Shown: piece after piece, positions 1 through 21,114 of the stretch | How the letters are laid out: each line of letters begins with the position of its first letter | Position numbering within the stretch: position 1 is the first letter of the stretch | Virus record (IMG/VR): IMGVR_UViG_3300042463_001774 | Location: 1-21,114 of that record | Length of the DNA: 21,114 bases | Reading direction: 5' to 3' (one strand) | Source of the DNA: a virus | Notes under the pieces: generated by a model | Database searches by the model: none | Seen by the model: only the letters and a program-made list of their open reading frames with translations | What the model was told of the DNA's origin: nothing | Translations under genes and position numbers: made by a program

Positions 1-257
1 AACTGCCCAGTCGCGATCAAGTCGTCGATGTGGCGCTGGTTACGCGCGAGCACGCCGGGATGGGTCTTCTCGTATTCGATCTCCTGCCAGCGATAAGCGA
101 TCCGCTTCTCGACGAAGCGGCGGTTGATCACCAGCGGCTCGGTGCCGTAGAGCCGCCGCCATTCCCGGGTCAATTGCGGCCAAGTCCAGGCGCTCAGCCC
201 GGCGATGCGGGCCGCCATCGGTGAAAGTGTGGTGGGGGAGGGAGATTCTCGCGTCAT
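1..257 (-). CDS. DUF2924-like protein, N-terminal part (3' end outside window)
   Basis: The frame is open from ATG 257 to the left edge; 85 codons are visible. It includes MAARIAGLSAWTWPQLTREW, RRLYGTEPLVINRRFVEKRI and AYRWQEIEYEKTHPG. The 'W-x-x-L-x-x-x-W-x-x-L-(Y/F)-G-T-E-P ... (K/L)-x-(I/L)-A-Y-R-x-Q-E' pattern is that of DUF2924, found beside large serine recombinase genes in prophages and genomic islands. GGAG lies 9 nt before ATG 257. Internal Met at 218 is a less likely start. Function unknown. Confidence 0.78.
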   Translation of the reverse strand, partial: MTRESPSPTTLSPMAARIAGLSAWTWPQLTREWRRLYGTEPLVINRRFVEKRIAYRWQEIEYEKTHPGVLARNQRHIDDLIATGQ

Positions 258-436
258 GCCTGTGGACTCCGGTGTGCGGGGTTGGCATGTACGCGTGGTT
301 CGGTCTGGAAGCCAAGTCCACGGTCAACCGGAGAGGCAAGACGTACAGTGCTCGGATCGACGTCGCGAGCGCGCAAACGGCGCAAGCCAAGCGCCAACAG
401 CCCGGCCGCTTCCGTGCGGCGCTGGGCGGGCGTCAT
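254..436 (-). CDS. Small protein of the kind paired with DUF2924 in recombinase loci
   Basis: A 60-residue protein. MTPAQRRTEAAGLLALGLRR followed by LRARD matches the pattern of short proteins encoded beside DUF2924 genes ('T-P-x-x-R-x-x-E-x-A-x-L-L-A-x-G-x-x-R-L-R-x-R'). The C-terminal LGFQTEPRVHA recalls their 'L-D-F ... H-A' ending. The start at 436 has no Shine-Dalgarno sequence. The stop overlaps the DUF2924-like start as ATGA. Copy F of the 31-bp element lies inside its coding sequence, a placement not seen for the other copies. Confidence 0.55.
   Translation of the reverse strand: MTPAQRRTEAAGLLALGLRRLRARDVDPSTVRLASPVDRGLGFQTEPRVHANPAHRSPQA
286..316 (-). repeat. Start-associated element, copy F
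   Basis: Minus strand: CTTGGCTTC, spacer CAGAC, then CGAACCACGCGTACATG (three differences from consensus in the right half). It ends 28 nt before the start codon at 257. Confidence 0.82.
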
Positions 437-615
437 GCGTGCAGGATCACAATCGTTGGAAGGAATCACAGGGTCTCTGAGGGATGTCAAACCAGCCGCC
501 AGTGTCACCGCAGCGATTGACTGCTGTATCGCAAGGCAACGCAATGCGAGGACGATGCCTTAGAGAGATCAACGATCCAATCGACGACGTGATTCGATCG
601 CCTGTCGCGGACCGG
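437..615. other. Spacer without a supported gene
   Basis: This 179-nt stretch follows the DUF3077-like stop. I see no gene, no clear -35/-10 pair and no strong terminator in it. It may hold a promoter for the left-hand genes. Confidence 0.4.
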
Positions 616-858
616 TCAGTCGTCTGCTGTTGATCTCCGCAGTGCGCCTGCGATGTCAAGCGCGAACTCGCACAAGTAAGCCAAGCCGCCGTCGATGCCG
701 GTTTCTGTACCAATCACCAGAAGGCGGCGCACCGCATCTTCGAGATCAGTCGCCTCGCGCAAGGCTGTGGCAGTCTCGACGCCGCTGGCGACCATCAGCA
801 AGGGGCGTTGTTCCGAAGGAATGTCGCGGAACGGGGTTTCGCGCGTCGTCTCGGTCAT
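616..858 (-). CDS. DUF3077/DUF6124-like small protein
   Basis: An 80-residue protein. FRDIPSEQRPLLMVASGVET, ATALREATDLEDAVRRLLVI and LAYLCEFALDIAGALRRS fit the small DUF3077/DUF6124-type family (hydrophobic strand, 'G-V-x-x-x-x-A-L-x-x-A-S' helix, then a C-terminal helix), which is common in Pseudomonas and relatives and has no known function. ATG 858 is chosen over 882 because GGGAG lies 7 nt before it. Confidence 0.75.
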   Translation of the reverse strand: MTETTRETPFRDIPSEQRPLLMVASGVETATALREATDLEDAVRRLLVIGTETGIDGGLAYLCEFALDIAGALRRSTADD

Positions 859-944
859 ATCCGCGCTCCCGAATCGGAACAAGCCGCCAAGCGCGATGAA
901 CGATGTTCGACCCGAATCGGGCCTGATAGAGTATTTGCAGCCAT
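855..944 (-). CDS. Possible 29-residue leader peptide
   Basis: A short frame, MAANTLSGPIRVEHRSSRLA plus nine residues, begins at ATG 944 with AGAGGA about 6 nt upstream, a very good ribosome binding site. It ends at a TGA overlapping the next gene's ATG (ATGA). The degenerate seventh element lies inside it. Its Ser-rich, basic composition is not distinctive, so it is either a translated leader that couples translation of the next gene or a chance reading frame. Confidence 0.4.
   Translation of the reverse strand: MAANTLSGPIRVEHRSSRLAACSDSGARI
895..918 (-). repeat. Degenerate seventh copy of the start-associated element
   Basis: Minus strand: GATTC, GGGT, CGAACA, then TCGTTCATC. This keeps the TTC, CGAACA and CGTTCAT blocks of the element but lacks 2-3 bases in the middle and one in the spacer. 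It ends 36 nt before the ATG at 858, matching the placement of the other copies. Confidence 0.5.
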
Positions 945-978
945 TGTCGTTCCTCTCGTGAACGGTGGTGGTTAGGGC

Positions 979-1004
979 GGCCGGGGTGTTAGCGCACCTC
1001 GGCC
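979..1004. terminator. Strong hairpin in the spacer between small-gene groups
   Basis: Arms GGCCGGGGTG and CACCTCGGCC flank a 6-base loop. The 10-bp stem has one G-U pair if read on the plus strand and one A-C mismatch on the minus strand. It lies between the stop at 1126 and the small ORF starting at 944. There is no clear T-run on the minus side, so a Rho-independent terminator is only one possibility. Confidence 0.4.
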
Positions 1005-1125
1005 GTCCGTGTTTCCGGCGTATGCCGGGGGAGTGGTGCTGGTGATGACGCGACCGTAGTTCTTGCGCGTCATGCGCCTACACGTGTGTGGTTGTTCTCC
1101 AAAGTGGGCAGCGTGGACATTTCGA

Positions 1126-1395
1126 TCACGTTCTCCGTCGGCCAGCGATCGTGTACTGGGCGTCGCGGATCTTCGCGAGATCGTCGAGTCTGCAGCGGGG
1201 GCTCAGACGATCTTCGACGGCAATGATGGTGGCGTGGAGGATGTCGCCGCGTTCCGCTGATGACTGTGCCTCGGCATAGCGAGCAATCTGTTGTTCGATC
1301 AGCATGCGTGTCGCCGTCATCGCTTCGATCAGGCGCTCCAGTTGGCGATGGCCTTCATCTTGGTCGGCAGTGGGCGTGGCGTGTTCGTCTTGCAT
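1126..1395 (-). CDS. Hypothetical helical protein (89 aa)
   Basis: An 89-residue, mostly helical protein: GHRQLERLIEAMTATRMLIE, then QQIARYAEAQSSAERGDILH and ATIIAVEDRLSPRCRLDDLA. The regular spacing of hydrophobic residues suggests a coiled coil or small helical bundle. ATG 1395 has no clear ribosome binding site. The upstream element is in frame, so an N-terminal extension of 10 residues from the ATG in the element is formally possible. No family recognised. Confidence 0.72.
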   Translation of the reverse strand: MQDEHATPTADQDEGHRQLERLIEAMTATRMLIEQQIARYAEAQSSAERGDILHATIIAVEDRLSPRCRLDDLAKIRDAQYTIAGRRRT

Positions 1396-1422
1396 GGCGA
1401 GATGTCCGTGTCGGTGTGGACA

Positions 1423-1453
1423 CATGAACGCGCTGTTCGCGGTGGAAGCCAAG
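1423..1453 (-). repeat. Start-associated element, copy E
   Basis: Minus strand: CTTGGCTTC, spacer CACCG, then CGAACAGCGCGTTCATG (perfect consensus). It ends 27 nt before the start codon at 1395. The preceding 145 nt back to the previous stop hold no gene that I can support. Confidence 0.88.
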
Positions 1454-1598
1454 TCCTTCAGCGCATCTTCTTCGCGAGAGAGCAATGATCGGCTTGTGAC
1501 CCGATCAGCGGCTCGCGCTGGCGTCAGACGCAGGCGCAACGAGCAAACATGGCTGCGGTCGACATTTTTTGCCGACCGTGCCGGCCGATGACGTGGCG

Positions 1599-1880
1599 TC
1601 AAACCGGTGGCGAATTCTGCGCAATGGCGTGCAGTTCAGCCTGTGCATCCGCCGCCAACCCGATCCGGGCGTTGACCGTCGCCCACGTGCAGACTGTGGA
1701 CAGCGCATGGTTCACGACACGCGACTTCTCGTGGAGCGGGGCTGCCTGATAACGCGCTTGGCAGCGTTCGATCTCACGCAACGCGTGTTCAAGCGCTTGC
1801 CGGATGTTGGTCAGTGCGTCCTCGCCTTGCGTGATGGCGCGGCGCGTGTTGAAGGCGTGTTCGTCGAAGTCAGTGCTCAT
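1599..1880 (-). CDS. Hypothetical helical protein (93 aa), possible paralogue of the gene at 1126-1395
   Basis: A 93-residue, largely helical protein: RRAITQGEDALTNIRQALEH, then REIERCQARYQAAPLHEKSR and VVNHALSTVCTWATVNARIG. ATG 1880 is preceded by AAGGGA at about 8 nt, a good ribosome binding site. Its core (IE-x-x-x-ARY-x-x-A ... R-x-(V/I)-x-x-HA) parallels that of the next small gene, suggesting an old duplication. No known family. Confidence 0.75.
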   Translation of the reverse strand: MSTDFDEHAFNTRRAITQGEDALTNIRQALEHALREIERCQARYQAAPLHEKSRVVNHALSTVCTWATVNARIGLAADAQAELHAIAQNSPPV

Positions 1881-1911
1881 TGGAGAAGTCCCTTGTGTGC
1901 AGGTGTGCATC

Positions 1912-1942
1912 CATGAACGCGCTGTTCGGCCATGAAGCCAAG
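1912..1942 (-). repeat. Start-associated element, copy D
   Basis: Minus strand: CTTGGCTTC, spacer ATGGC, then CGAACAGCGCGTTCATG (perfect consensus). It ends 31 nt before the start codon at 1880 and begins 63 nt after the previous stop. Upstream it also shares CTGTACGAC with the region before copy A. Confidence 0.88.
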
Positions 1943-2005
1943 CGGCAACGCTGTAGATTTGTGCGATAGACAAGCGTCGTACAGGTTCCAAAAGCAGCGT
2001 GCAGG

Positions 2006-2374
2006 TTATGTGTCCTGCTCGGCCAGCGGCGGCGCGAACCCGACGATCCTGTCGGTGCCAGACGCGGCGCGTCGGTTGATTTCGGCGAGGACATGCGCGC
2101 GCAGATCCGTGTCGCCGCGGTGAATCGCGAGTAGGAAGGTGGTGTCGAGCGTGGTCACGCACTCGGCGAGCGGAACGTCGTTGCTGGTGACATAGCGTTC
2201 GCCGTCTTCGAAGCCGATCTCGTAGGCTCCCGCAAGTGCATCGAGCAGCGTCTGGATGCGCGCGATCTCGGTGGGGTTGCCGGAGGCGGCGACCACATCG
2301 ATGTCGGTGTCGAAACGGTCGCGCACGATGCGGCGGTACGGGTCTTGATCGTTGCGGAACACGTGCGTTGTCAT
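2006..2374 (-). CDS. Hypothetical protein (122 aa)
   Basis: A 122-residue acidic protein. It contains RIVRDRFDTDIDVVAASGNP, LLDALAGAYEIGFEDGERYV, and a helical HRGDTDLRAHVLAEINRRAA. No family recognised. It starts 13 nt after the preceding stop and has a good GGAG with 6-nt spacing. It is the one gene in this block that is not preceded by a copy of the 31-bp element, so it is probably co-transcribed with the gene before it. Confidence 0.75.
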   Translation of the reverse strand: MTTHVFRNDQDPYRRIVRDRFDTDIDVVAASGNPTEIARIQTLLDALAGAYEIGFEDGERYVTSNDVPLAECVTTLDTTFLLAIHRGDTDLRAHVLAEINRRAASGTDRIVGFAPPLAEQDT

Positions 2375-2387
2375 GGGAGTCTCCGAC

Positions 2388-2711
2388 TTACCACACGATG
2401 CCGGTGGGGCTGGTGGCGATGCGCGCCAGCAACGCGGCGAGCGGCTCGACCTGCGCGCCTTCCGCGACAGGCGCGAGCAGCGTGCTGCCGGTGTCGATCA
2501 GTTCGATGCGGATGACGTCGATGCCGTTGCTGGCGTAGGCGACGTGCTTGCGGCCGTCGATGCGGCGCATGAGCGCGTTCGGTGTGCGTGCGCGCAGGAC
2601 TTCGCGTTGCCATGCATGCCGTCCACGCTTGCCGGGGACGCGCACCAGCAGGGTGGCGAGGAAGAATTCCTTGACGCGCTTGGGTTGCTTGGAGACGTTC
2701 GTTGTTTTCAT
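2388..2711 (-). CDS. Hypothetical protein (107 aa)
   Basis: A 107-residue protein with a basic N-terminus (SKQPKRVKEFFLATLLVRVP), a central WQREVLRARTPNALMRRIDG, and a beta-rich second half (HVAYASNGIDVIRIELIDTG) ending in SPTGIVW. I do not recognise the family. ATG 2711 has no clear ribosome binding site. The element upstream is in frame with the gene, so translation from the element's own ATG would add 10 residues; this is judged less likely because no purine tract precedes it. Confidence 0.7.
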   Translation of the reverse strand: MKTTNVSKQPKRVKEFFLATLLVRVPGKRGRHAWQREVLRARTPNALMRRIDGRKHVAYASNGIDVIRIELIDTGSTLLAPVAEGAQVEPLAALLARIATSPTGIVW

Positions 2712-2738
2712 GATCTGTCGATGTCCGTGTCGGGGTGG

Positions 2739-2769
2739 CATGTACGCGCTGTTCGGGACCGAAGCCAAG
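2739..2769 (-). repeat. Start-associated element, copy C
   Basis: Minus strand: CTTGGCTTC, spacer GGTCC, then CGAACAGCGCGTACATG (one T-to-A change). It ends 27 nt before the start codon at 2711. The leader after it shares CCGACACGGACATC with that of copy E. Confidence 0.88.
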
Positions 2770-2799
2770 CGATCCGCGCGTTTTATCTCGCGCACAGAT

Positions 2800-2985
2800 T
2801 CACCGGACGGCGACCGCCTTGCGGCCCTGCTCGACACCTGCGTTGTAGGCCGCTTCGAGGGCGTCGTGCAGGCGCTCAACTGACACTTCGTGGAAGTCCA
2901 GTCGATCCGAGCCTTGCGGCTGGAGCGTTTCGATGCCCAGCGTTTTCTGTGCGATGCGGGCGAGGAGTGGTTTGATCGTCTTCAT
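2800..2985 (-). CDS. DUF6900-like small protein
   Basis: A 61-residue protein. ARIAQKTLGIETLQPQGSDR followed by LDFHEVSVERLHDALEAAYN and AGVEQG fits the DUF6900 domain pattern (IA-x-x-x-L-x-I-x-T-L-x-x-x-x-S-D-x-L-D-F-x-x-V ... L-x-x-A-L-x-A-A-Y-x-A-G). This domain is frequent as a stand-alone small protein in phages and plasmids, with no known role. No Shine-Dalgarno sequence is evident before ATG 2985. Confidence 0.85.
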   Translation of the reverse strand: MKTIKPLLARIAQKTLGIETLQPQGSDRLDFHEVSVERLHDALEAAYNAGVEQGRKAVAVR

Positions 2986-3017
2986 GGTCGGTGCCGTGGT
3001 GGTGTGCGTGGGGATGA

Positions 3018-3048
3018 CATGAACGCGCTGTTCGATGAAGAAGCCAAG
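3018..3048 (-). repeat. Start-associated element, copy B
   Basis: Minus strand: CTTGGCTTC, spacer TTCAT, then CGAACAGCGCGTTCATG (perfect consensus). It ends 32 nt before the start codon at 2985 and begins 37 nt after the previous stop. An A-rich stretch (TAAAA) lies 15 nt ahead of it. Confidence 0.88.
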
Positions 3049-3085
3049 TTGAATTGGCTTTTATTCCGACGGGTTTGGAATTCGG

Positions 3086-3469
3086 TTATCCGAGGCGGGC
3101 GACGTAACGGGCGTAGTCGTAGCCCGACGGGTCGACGTAGAGGTAAGGGCGACCGGGCGCGCGGACTTCGATGCACAGGCAACCATCGGCGACGTTGCCA
3201 CCCTTGCCGGCGAGCCATGCCTGCGGCCGGCTCAGATCCGCCGCGAAGGCATCGAACTGGGCGATGGTCATTTCGACCGTTTCGGTGACGTAGATTCGAT
3301 GCTCGCCGGTCGCGCACATCTCGCGCAGAGAATCGGGCTTGCACGCGAAGGGCAGGCGCGCACCGAGTTCTTCGACCTGAATAGGGTTGCCGCGAAATTG
3401 CAAGGTGCGTGGCGTGCGCGGGATGTGGAGGGTCATGGTGTAGGGGGTGGCGAGCGTCATCGTGGGCAT
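3086..3469 (-). CDS. Hypothetical protein (127 aa) with GYDYARYV ending
   Basis: A 127-residue protein rich in beta-type sequence: QFRGNPIQVEELGARLPFAC, then HRIYVTETVEMTIAQFDAFA, ending EVRAPGRPYLYVDPSGYDYA plus RYVARLG. Proteins ending in 'DP-x-G-Y-D-Y-A-R-Y-V' occur in accessory regions of proteobacterial plasmids and prophages, but I know no function. ATG 3469 gives the longest form, with a weak GGAA upstream; an ATG at 3460 is possible. A copy of the 31-bp element lies 37 nt upstream. Confidence 0.75.
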   Translation of the reverse strand: MPTMTLATPYTMTLHIPRTPRTLQFRGNPIQVEELGARLPFACKPDSLREMCATGEHRIYVTETVEMTIAQFDAFAADLSRPQAWLAGKGGNVADGCLCIEVRAPGRPYLYVDPSGYDYARYVARLG

Positions 3470-3506
3470 GTGCGTTTTCCGCGTGGGCGTCGGCGATTCG
3501 ACGAGG

Positions 3507-3537
3507 ACATGAACGCGCTGTGTGCGAGAGAAGCCAA
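3507..3537 (-). repeat. Start-associated element, copy A
   Basis: Minus strand: CTTGGCTTC, spacer TCTCG, then CACACAGCGCGTTCATG. The right half differs from consensus at two bases (CACA for CGAA). It ends 37 nt before the start codon at 3469 and begins 77 nt after the tail-tip stop. Confidence 0.85.
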
Positions 3538-3614
3538 GCGCAAAATGATGTCGCGCCGCGACATCCGGACACGTGTCGTACAGCTTTCGTGGATGCGTTG
3601 ACGACGCACCTGGA

Positions 3615-6101
3615 TTACGCCAACCTGCGCAGGCTCACACGTTCGACGCGTCCCGCGAACGCAGCGTCGGCGGCGACACGCAGCGCGGTGTGCGCGTTCG
3701 CGGTGAGGGTGTCGACGAAGGTGCCGCTCGCGCCACGCGCCTCAACGTCGACGGGCGCGTTGCCGACGAATCCGACGCGCACCGTTCCGGCGGTGACCTG
3801 GGACAACACGAGCTCGATGCGATACACGCCACCGTCGACGAAGGCGAACGGTTGTTCGAGGGGCGACGCGACGCCTGCGGCCTTGACCGCGGCGCCCCCG
3901 GCGATCGACCAGCCAGCACCGAGCGTCCACGCGGCGGGCGTGTCGAAGTCGGCATTGGTCAGCTTTTCGCCGCATTCGCACTGCAGCGTGCGGATGTGTT
4001 TCTGTCGGCTGGACAGCGTGCCGCGCCGGCTCTCGACCTCGATGCGCAGCATGGCGTCGTTGGCGAGCAGCACATCGACGCTGTGCTGCGTCCCGGTGAT
4101 GCCGGTCGTCTCGTGCAGTACCGCGCCGCTGAGCGCGTGGACGATGCGCACGCGCGTCGCCGTGCCGGGTTCGGGACCGATGCTGCCGGCCTCGTGTTCG
4201 ATCAGGCGATCGCCCTGCAGGACGCGATCACGATGCGCCCACGCGAACGACACGCGCGCGAAGCTCGCGGCGGGCCAGGCGCTGCCGTTAATCCGCAAGC
4301 GACCCGGGGGATAGGGACGCGCGTGACGCGCGTCGAGGCGGACCTGCGCGATCGGTGCGAGCGCGGGATCAAGCGTGCCTTGCTGGGTGCGGGTCAGGAG
4401 TTTGGCGTCGATGATTTCGCCGGCCAGGTATTCGGTGGGATCGGCGCCGACGTAGGTGTCGGTGAACCAGACCCGAGCACCTGCGGCGTGCGGTACGGGC
4501 ACGGTGTCGACGCAGCCGCGCGCGATCGTCAGCGTGCCGGCGACCGCATCAATCGCGTCGATCCGGACCAGTTCGTCATCGATCAGGGCTTCGGTGCCGA
4601 CAATGACCAGATCGAGATCGCGCATGTCCGCCAGCAGGGCCTGCGTGTCGGTCGGCCCGAGCGCGCCCGCGAGGGTGGCTGTGGCCGAGAAGTCGCCGCT
4701 GGCCACCTCCTCGAAGGTGCCGCCCGACGTGCGCGTGGAGAGCACGTAGCCATAGGCAGGGCCATTCGGTCGCGCACCGAGCGCTACCACGAAGCCGGCA
4801 TCGTCCTCGACCAAGGCCAGATCCGCCGGCCGCAGACGACCGGCGAGATCGCGGTACGTGGCTTCGATCAGCCGCTGGGCCGGCAGCGGTTGCGGCCGGG
4901 GATCGGGCGGCGTCCACGGTCCGATCACAGGACGCAGATAGGTGGTCGCGGCCATGCCGTCGATGTCCTGCAGCAGGACCAGCGCAAGCGCGCCATCGGT
5001 GCGTGTGCCCTCGTCAACCTCCAGCACCCGCACCGGCATGCGCTGCACGCCCTTGCGTCGCCAGGACAGCGCGAGCACGTCGCCGCGCTTGATGCCCCAC
5101 CAGCGACGATCGACGGTGAGTTTGATCCGCTGCAGCAGGCTGCTCGCCGCCTGGGTTTCGCGCGCGGCCACGCGCTCGCACAGGGTGCGATTCCACAGTC
5201 CCGGCAGCGCACGACGATCGGCGATGACGCGCCCCTGCGCCTGGACGTTCGCCATGTTCTGGAACGTGGCCGCGATCTCGAGATTGGTCACGCAATCGCG
5301 ACCGAGCACCGTGACCTCGTTGACGCTGCCATCGAGCAGCGGCGTCTGCCAGCTCTCCACGGCCAGCACGCTGGTCTCATCGAGCAACGGCAGCGTCGCG
5401 ACGTCGTAGTCCGGGCGGAACAGCCGGTAGACGAACTGGCCGAGCATCGGATCGAACGCCCATAGCCCGCCGACATGGTTGTTCACCGTCTGCAGGAAAT
5501 GTCCCACCGAGTCCCCGCGCCGCCAGCCCAGGCACAGCCCGAACGCCTCGTCGTGCAACTGCTCGGCCGCGTGCAGGAAGCTCTCCGCGTGCAGCAGCGC
5601 CGGATCGAGTCCCACGCCCCACACCGTATCGGTGAGGCACTGGTAGTGGATGTGCGCCGCGTTCATGCCACGGCCGATGCGCGCGAGCGACGGTTCCCAC
5701 ACAGGCGTGGACCAGCCCTGCACGAAACGCCCCCAGCGCTTGGCCCACAGCTTCAGGTAGGGATTCATCGCCCCGACCATTCCGCGATAGAGCGTGGTGC
5801 AGAGCCCACGTCCCGCCGGCCACGGTCCGGGCACTTGCTGCTGCAGATACGGATCGGGCATCTGCGTCGCTTCGCCCATCCGGATCTGCAGCGTGCCGAC
5901 GAGGCCGCCTTCTTTCTTGTCGCCGCCGAAGAGCTGCGGCAAGTTGATCGGCAGCGTGCGACTGCCAGGCAGCTCGCCCTCGAACACCGGCTGGCCGCCC
6001 ACTTTCAAGCCCGCGAGATAGTCGTTCGGACCGATCGACTCACCCATGTACAGGTACATGAAATGGCGATAGCCGATCGTCGGCTTGCTCGACTTACCCA
6101 T
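3615..6101 (-). CDS. Large tail-tip protein with phage-tail_3 domain and C-terminal jelly-roll-like domain
   Basis: An 828-residue protein, probably the central fibre/tip protein that contacts the host (lambda gpJ or GTA 'megatron' analogue). The first about 200 residues are aromatic-rich with FMYLYMGESIGPNDYLAGLK and GMNAAHIHYQCLTDTVWGVG. Residues about 225-350 match the phage-tail_3 pattern: YRLFRPDYDVATLPLLDETS, NEVTVLGRD, the TFQNMANVQAQGRVI segment, and the final WWGIKRGDVLALSW. The middle holds beta domains. Residues about 714-828 look like a carbohydrate-binding jelly roll (NADFDTPAAWTLGAGWSIAG, then PLEQPFAFVDGGVYRIEL, ending FAGRVERVSLRRL). It is much shorter than the GTA protein and has no TIM-barrel hydrolase. 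It is the last gene of the tail cluster; 145 nt follow before the next gene. Confidence 0.82.
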   Translation of the reverse strand: MGKSSKPTIGYRHFMYLYMGESIGPNDYLAGLKVGGQPVFEGELPGSRTLPINLPQLFGGDKKEGGLVGTLQIRMGEATQMPDPYLQQQVPGPWPAGRGLCTTLYRGMVGAMNPYLKLWAKRWGRFVQGWSTPVWEPSLARIGRGMNAAHIHYQCLTDTVWGVGLDPALLHAESFLHAAEQLHDEAFGLCLGWRRGDSVGHFLQTVNNHVGGLWAFDPMLGQFVYRLFRPDYDVATLPLLDETSVLAVESWQTPLLDGSVNEVTVLGRDCVTNLEIAATFQNMANVQAQGRVIADRRALPGLWNRTLCERVAARETQAASSLLQRIKLTVDRRWWGIKRGDVLALSWRRKGVQRMPVRVLEVDEGTRTDGALALVLLQDIDGMAATTYLRPVIGPWTPPDPRPQPLPAQRLIEATYRDLAGRLRPADLALVEDDAGFVVALGARPNGPAYGYVLSTRTSGGTFEEVASGDFSATATLAGALGPTDTQALLADMRDLDLVIVGTEALIDDELVRIDAIDAVAGTLTIARGCVDTVPVPHAAGARVWFTDTYVGADPTEYLAGEIIDAKLLTRTQQGTLDPALAPIAQVRLDARHARPYPPGRLRINGSAWPAASFARVSFAWAHRDRVLQGDRLIEHEAGSIGPEPGTATRVRIVHALSGAVLHETTGITGTQHSVDVLLANDAMLRIEVESRRGTLSSRQKHIRTLQCECGEKLTNADFDTPAAWTLGAGWSIAGGAAVKAAGVASPLEQPFAFVDGGVYRIELVLSQVTAGTVRVGFVGNAPVDVEARGASGTFVDTLTANAHTALRVAADAAFAGRVERVSLRRLA

Positions 6102-20485: not shown

Positions 20486-21114
20486 CACGTCGTCTGCGAA
20501 GAGGGTGCGTTGGCCGACGTCGCCGTCGGATGGTCATGTCTTGGATCGGAGTCGAAGACCAGGCCCAGCGCATCGGCACGGGCGTTGTCGGCGGCGATCT
20601 CGCGGTCGATGTCCTCGGCGTCGTAGCCGAAACTGGAGATCGCTTCCGAGCGCGAGAGCAAGCCGCCGCGGATAGCCGCGATCATCGCGTCGAATTCCTT
20701 CTTCGGATCGACCCACTGCCAGCCCTGCGCGACCCATTTCACGGCTGTGTAGGCGCGACGGCGCGCAACGCCACCGCGCGCGTAGCCGGGCAGCACCAGC
20801 GCGCCTTCGAGCACGGCCTGCGTCATCCACGCGCGCCACAGCGGGCGGCACAGCTGGTGGACGATGACGCCGTGCTGGATCGCTTCACAACGTCGCCGAA
20901 ATTCCAGCAATCCGGCCCGAATGGACGAGTAGTTCACCTGCGTGAGATCGCCGGTGAGCATCTCGTAGGTGATGCCCATCGCTGCAGCGACCGCGCGGAA
21001 CTGCTGGCGCATGAACTCGGCGTAGCTCGACCCGACATCCGCCGGCTGCGAGAACTTCACGTCCTCGCCTGGCTCCAGAAACTGCATCGTGCCTGGCTCC
21101 AGGCTGGCCGTAGC
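20485..21114 (-). CDS. Phage portal protein, lambda gpB-type, C-terminal part (5' end outside window)
   Basis: The reading frame is open to the right edge of the window, so only the last 209 residues are visible. Portal proteins form the dodecameric ring at the capsid vertex through which DNA is packaged and ejected. The visible part begins with the LEPG and FLEPGEDV region typical of lambda-type portals. It continues with YAEFMRQQFRAVAAAMGITY and the conserved LTGDLTQVNYSSIRAGLLEF core, then a charged tail ending in a low-complexity Ser/Thr/Pro stretch. An in-frame ATG at 21087 is internal, because the homologous region continues upstream of it. Its TGA stop overlaps the start of the protease gene, as expected for the lambda B-C gene order. 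The family assignment is strong; the length of the missing N-terminus is unknown. Confidence 0.93.
   Translation of the reverse strand, partial: ATASLEPGTMQFLEPGEDVKFSQPADVGSSYAEFMRQQFRAVAAAMGITYEMLTGDLTQVNYSSIRAGLLEFRRRCEAIQHGVIVHQLCRPLWRAWMTQAVLEGALVLPGYARGGVARRRAYTAVKWVAQGWQWVDPKKEFDAMIAAIRGGLLSRSEAISSFGYDAEDIDREIAADNARADALGLVFDSDPRHDHPTATSANAPSSQTT

Follow-up and report, generated by a model that had tools for sequence, protein, structure and literature searches.

What does a short sequence do that recurs before one small, unrelated gene after another? In the 21,114-nt stretch of viral DNA analyzed here (the window), the element CTTGGCTTC-N5-CGAACAGCGCGTTCATG is found six times, always on the minus strand and each time ahead of the ATG of a different gene (Table 1). 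A search of all 21,114 bases allowing three mismatches recovered exactly these six copies and found no match in 100 dinucleotide shuffles, and there are no further copies elsewhere in the virus record. The preliminary description of this DNA had reported six copies with the same left nine bases throughout, three perfect matches, and no copy in the head and tail operon, all of which our search bears out. Five of the positions it gave are also correct, but the rightmost copy, placed at 3507-3537, lies one base away, and the distance to the start codon reaches 38 nt rather than 37 nt. The gene at 2006-2374, which it took for the only small gene lacking a copy, does follow closely behind its neighbor, but the gene at 616-858 is a second such case.

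Table 1. Element copies and genes of the small-gene block, in window coordinates. Mismatches are to the element consensus.
Feature	Position	Strand	Details
Element copy 1	3508..3538	-	2 mismatches; 38 nt 5' of ATG, gene 3086-3469
Small gene, 127 aa	3086..3469	-	array family c3
Element copy 2	3018..3048	-	perfect; 32 nt 5' of ATG, gene 2800-2985
Small gene, 61 aa	2800..2985	-	DUF6900, E 2.3e-21
Element copy 3	2739..2769	-	1 mismatch; 27 nt 5' of ATG at 2711
Small gene, 107 aa	2388..2711	-	array family c8
Gene without element copy	2006..2374	-	directly behind 2388-2711
Element copy 4	1912..1942	-	perfect; 31 nt 5' of ATG, gene 1599-1880
Small gene, 93 aa	1599..1880	-	array family c6
Element copy 5	1423..1453	-	perfect; 27 nt 5' of ATG, gene 1126-1395
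Small gene, 89 aa	1126..1395	-	array family c12
Small gene without element copy	616..858	-	preceded by 267-nt gap
Element copy 6	286..316	-	3 mismatches; 28 nt 5' of ATG at 257
DUF2924 gene, 5' part	1..257	-	runs off the window

A contig that extends 1 kb further than the window, and shares 99.98% identity with it across 6.6 kb, carries the DUF2924 gene in full (E 4.7e-37) and, behind it, a large serine recombinase (Resolvase, E 1.2e-37). The copy at 286 thus heads a DUF2924 and serine recombinase operon, so that the six copies include the phage integration operon, a point that earlier work on this DNA missed along with the spread of the element over many hosts. No intrinsic terminators were found between the window genes on the minus strand, and the element-less gene at 2006-2374, lying directly behind an element-bearing gene, would be co-transcribed with it. 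The 267-nt gap before the other element-less gene contains a structured stretch that differs from the element: positions 939-1011 on the plus strand give a sub-threshold match to the SymR antitoxin RNA (44.5 bits against a gathering threshold of 61, E 1.2e-5), and the opposite strand (1009-937) gives a sub-threshold match to the R1162 plasmid antisense RNA.

The element is not private to the phage of the window and is more widespread than first thought. More than 400 distinct copies were collected from viral contigs and from prophages of Beta- and Gammaproteobacteria, Acidithiobacillus, and Nitrospira. Among viral contigs the strict pattern occurs in 84 stretches and a looser one in at least 119, and in bacterial genomes it was found in at least 118 stretches, the carriers including Burkholderiales, Rhodocyclales, Lysobacterales, Pseudomonas, Halotalea, Methylocaldum, Nitrosomonas, and Nitrospira defluvii. 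An exact match was found in 9 (about 3%) of 274 genomes sampled evenly from a single class, that of a Thiomonas genome (Gammaproteobacteria). Copies are grouped in islands within a genome; most of the islands examined are tailed prophages that carry a recombinase, an HTH/ImmA-type regulator, replication genes, methylases, terminase, head, and tail genes, and some consist of a recombinase module alone. In one Luteibacter record (L143), about 3 kb separate a tmRNA gene from an element-bearing recombinase module (791-1144 and 4163-5669), which may point to integration at ssrA. The spacing of the two halves is rigid, as the correct pattern matches 22 of 22 genomes and a version with the right half shifted by one base (longer) matches 1 of 22, and the reversed pattern gave zero matches in the scans. 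No gene common to all carriers was found, the recombinase module and DUF3489 coming nearest.

Wherever it occurs, the element is tied to gene starts. An ORF begins within 90 nt of 413 of the 416 distinct copies, mostly at 26-38 nt and typically about 33 nt downstream, where the start codon has a ribosome-binding site; under a strict test for an ATG with a Shine-Dalgarno motif, 319 of the 416 qualify, compared with 9% of random positions. The downstream proteins form 44 sequence clusters and are mostly small, comprising DUF3489, DUF6900, DUF2924, and unnamed families, and ten cluster representatives tested showed no match to known defense families. Arrays of these genes occupy two sites. At the first, between the early genes and the terminase, 286 of 286 copies (counted without dereplication) are antisense to the terminase and lytic operon, so the array genes there need a promoter of their own; at the second, behind the tail genes, 86 of 89 copies, likewise not dereplicated, are on the same strand as these genes, and the window is of this type. 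A 36-kb contig of the window type (G031) has both arrays, an antisense one with DUF3489 and a tail-side one like that of the window. The antisense array usually ends with the gene for phrog_8020 (L066:2093-2461 and relatives), a conserved all-helical protein of 122 aa for which a confident model (pLDDT 90) found no solved structural relative. The proposal that the element controls each small gene, which random placement inside unrelated genes or loss from relatives would have spoken against, is supported on both counts. Of 130 sites in related prophage regions, 122 are followed 15-65 nt later by a start that has a ribosome-binding motif. Among the remaining eight, most show the usual spacing to an ATG and none resembles a random intragenic site. 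Relatives with the same small genes have kept the element.

Two readings other than transcriptional control can be weighed on this layout. The first is that the element is coding, its frame 1 (LGFxxEQRVH) being either the C-terminus of the upstream small protein or a leader peptide. This is the case locally, in that DUF2924 operons such as that of AcaML1 (gp5) have the element inside the end of the upstream small ORF, but other copies often have frame 1 closed directly or a few codons upstream, and frame-1 stops are unphased to the downstream start beyond the effect of common ATGA starts. As a general explanation the peptide is therefore largely refuted, and we give it hardly any credence. A plus-strand reading as MNALFxxEAK was likewise rejected, as synonymous variation is nearly lacking in the constant blocks of the six copies. 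The second, that the element is a recombination boundary by which small genes are exchanged as cassettes, draws on the gene content and order of the arrays, which vary freely among phages with the same families permuted and each accompanied by its own copy, and on the precedent of Cluster O phages, in which deletions occur between 17-bp repeats (PMC4351075). The preliminary description had raised this option, and the shuffled gene order fits it. It leaves unexplained, however, the one-sided orientation, the fixed distance to the start, the copy before the integrase, the invariant bases, and the phased A/T tracts and start-site signature described below, and exchange may be a by-product of repeated promoters; we consider it very improbable.

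The sequences flanking the element suggest a different role. In a first set of 141-172 dereplicated copies, A/T tracts extend about 28 bp upstream of the element, with three peaks at element coordinates -4, -15, and -26 (z up to 10.7) and a return to baseline beyond -30. The tracts are one helical turn apart, with a period of about 11.5 bp that is distinct from the codon period and a power of 0.099 against 0.018 for the largest circular-shift control. On the other side, relatives have five less-constrained bases past the element end and then a conserved YRYCRYMA at positions 36-43, in which positions 36 and 38 are pyrimidines and 37 is rarely T, followed by a T-poor, unstructured leader past position 38. 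Constraint thus extends to both sides, and the 31 bp first given for the element are slightly short. A second set of 50 further copies, with flanks unrelated to the first, reproduced the tracts (0.81, 0.60, and 0.53 against 0.37) and the start-site signature (Y36 in 100%, R37 in 90%, Y38 in 90%, and C39 in 90%), with a ribosome-binding motif and start in 49 of 50 (median 33 nt, interquartile range 31-35). The copies in the window are partly exceptional, as their A/T tracts vary and in three of six the purine of position 37 is replaced by C, so the exact start may differ between copies. An inverted repeat, GAAGCCAAG, upstream of CTTGGCTTC was rejected, as just 4 of the 172 dereplicated copies have it.

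In UP elements, A/T tracts lie near -41, -52, and -62, and transcription start sites show a pyrimidine-purine preference. We infer from sequence geometry alone that each copy is the core of a bacterial RNA polymerase promoter and where its +1 lies. The +1 would be element position 37, the conserved purine of the Y-R-Y at 36-38; TTGGCT (positions 2-7) would then span -35 to -30 and GTTCAT (positions 25-30) -12 to -7, with a 17-bp spacer between them and a six-base discriminator before +1. The upstream tracts would fall near -41, -52, and -63 as putative contact sites for the alpha C-terminal domain, and the transcript would have a leader of 22-33 nt carrying the ribosome-binding site. Accessory genes or short operons and the integrase operon would in this way be expressed from the same promoter, apart from the lytic operon and presumably mainly in the prophage state. 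The directly observed basis for this is the position, spacing, and strand bias of the element, the phased tracts, and the start-site signature, and the occurrence of an element-less gene directly behind an element-bearing one also counts in its favor. We conclude that the element is probably a horizontally spread promoter class shared by prophage accessory genes and integrase.

The composition, with its phased A/T tracts and pyrimidine-purine start, is that of a general polymerase promoter with an UP element, but it is not that of a housekeeping sigma-70 promoter: the 17-bp spacing and the TTG of the -35 fit, whereas GTTCAT as a -10 does not. Counting against a promoter are the missing A at the second position of this putative -10, the conservation of positions 36-43, which is more than an initiator needs, and the variable tracts and the C at position 37 noted above for copies in the window. 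The non-consensus -10, the fixed N5 gap, and the invariant bases outside the hexamers could instead indicate an operator or silencer, at which a prophage protein binds both blocks and controls a promoter located elsewhere. No sigma-70-like promoter was found in positions 1-3800 of the window, the copies with their flanks score below shuffles as sigma-70 promoters, and the start-site signature and phased tracts match polymerase geometry; we therefore regard an operator as unlikely, although it would be compatible with a promoter if the two overlap. The constant position, mostly 27-38 nt before starts, and the conserved bases up to position 43 would also suit an RNA leader element acting post-transcriptionally, for example through small-RNA pairing or protein binding near the ribosome-binding site. 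Folding gave no structure common to the copies (mean MFE z about 0), the element has no match to Rfam covariance models, and helix-phased A/T tracts are a DNA feature, which makes this option, also raised in the preliminary description, quite improbable.

If the element is a promoter, the wide departure of its -10 from the sigma-70 consensus, together with a spacer, GAACAGCGC, that hardly varies, suggests that it is probably read with a dedicated factor, which would more likely be a prophage activator than an unusual host sigma factor. By-eye comparison with the sigma-32, sigma-54, sigma-28, and ECF consensus sequences gave no fit, and a LexA-like GAAC-N5-GTTC was rejected as GAAC is not constant. 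A phage sigma factor (PF04542, region 2) was found in none of 40 viral records, many of them fragments, the control being found in 10 of 14 genomes; a phage single-subunit RNA polymerase (PF00940) was also found in none of the 40, with the control genomes equally silent. The best available candidate reader is DUF3489, a protein with two predicted winged-helix domains and weak MarR/ArsR-like matches, the gene of which is itself preceded by the element. It occurs in 53 of 62 carriers, whereas the next of the array proteins tested occurs in 48, and each of the 16 bacterial genomes with at least three copies has it, a co-occurrence that is confounded by DUF3489 being an array gene itself; it is absent from four viral fragments and from five bacterial genomes in which the element is present just once or twice. 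Isolated recombinase modules without nearby prophage genes keep the element, which would favor a host factor unless these are unregulated remnants. That the element represents a previously undescribed promoter class with its own cognate factor, perhaps DUF3489, and defines a portable integrase and antisense-array regulon spread horizontally across several phyla is a broader proposal, which we advance tentatively and with some doubt.

Several known systems share parts of this arrangement. The CII-dependent promoters of lambda and the MotA-dependent middle promoters of T4 each have a common non-consensus region that is read with a phage activator. They resemble the element in having such a region, but their sequences are different, T4 middle promoters retain a TATAAT -10, and the activator is putative for the element. 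Morons are accessory genes expressed from their own promoter independently of the lytic operon, as would be the case here; their promoters are normally individual and unrelated, whereas one promoter-like class would be common to all the genes described here and the integrase. The parallel drawn earlier with Cluster K mycobacteriophages holds better for the ESAS, with its putative promoter and inverted repeat, than for the SAS, which holds a Shine-Dalgarno sequence (PMC11373665). The element has neither GGGATAGGAGCCC at 3-9 bp from the start nor an inverted repeat; it lies 27-38 nt from the start and is without a Shine-Dalgarno core. The ESAS, a repeated sequence of about 46 bp found like the element before unrelated small genes, is now thought to hold a promoter, and some of its genes are expressed in the lysogen (PMC3203893, PMC11373665). 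It differs in sequence, has SigA-like hexamers and a 15-17 bp inverted repeat, is linked to the SAS, and is described in Cluster K; the element has no inverted repeat and no canonical -10 and is spread across phyla. In S. aureus prophages, a conserved int promoter is read by the host sigma-H (PMC2869324). It too is a short conserved region before the integrase that lacks a housekeeping-sigma consensus and ends before the Shine-Dalgarno sequence, but it serves only int, is found in staphylococci, has another sequence, and has a proven host sigma factor, whereas the element serves many genes and has only a candidate reader. Our search of the literature on the sequence and on repeated phage start elements found no description of the element.

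If this reading is correct, one DNA signal marks a regulon of uncharacterized small prophage genes and integrase in about 3% of the sampled Gammaproteobacteria genomes and would provide a simple handle for locating such genes and predicting their starts. It also poses the question of which factor reads a promoter that is constant across Acidithiobacillus, Pseudomonas, Thiomonas, and Nitrospira, for which AcaML1, a described inducible phage with four element copies (before gp4, before gp28, and at 21111 and 22243), is a ready model. The annotated start of AcaML1 gp30 (20791-21153) lies upstream of the element at 21111-21141; translation more likely begins near 21075, at a start codon preceded by the element and a ribosome-binding site.
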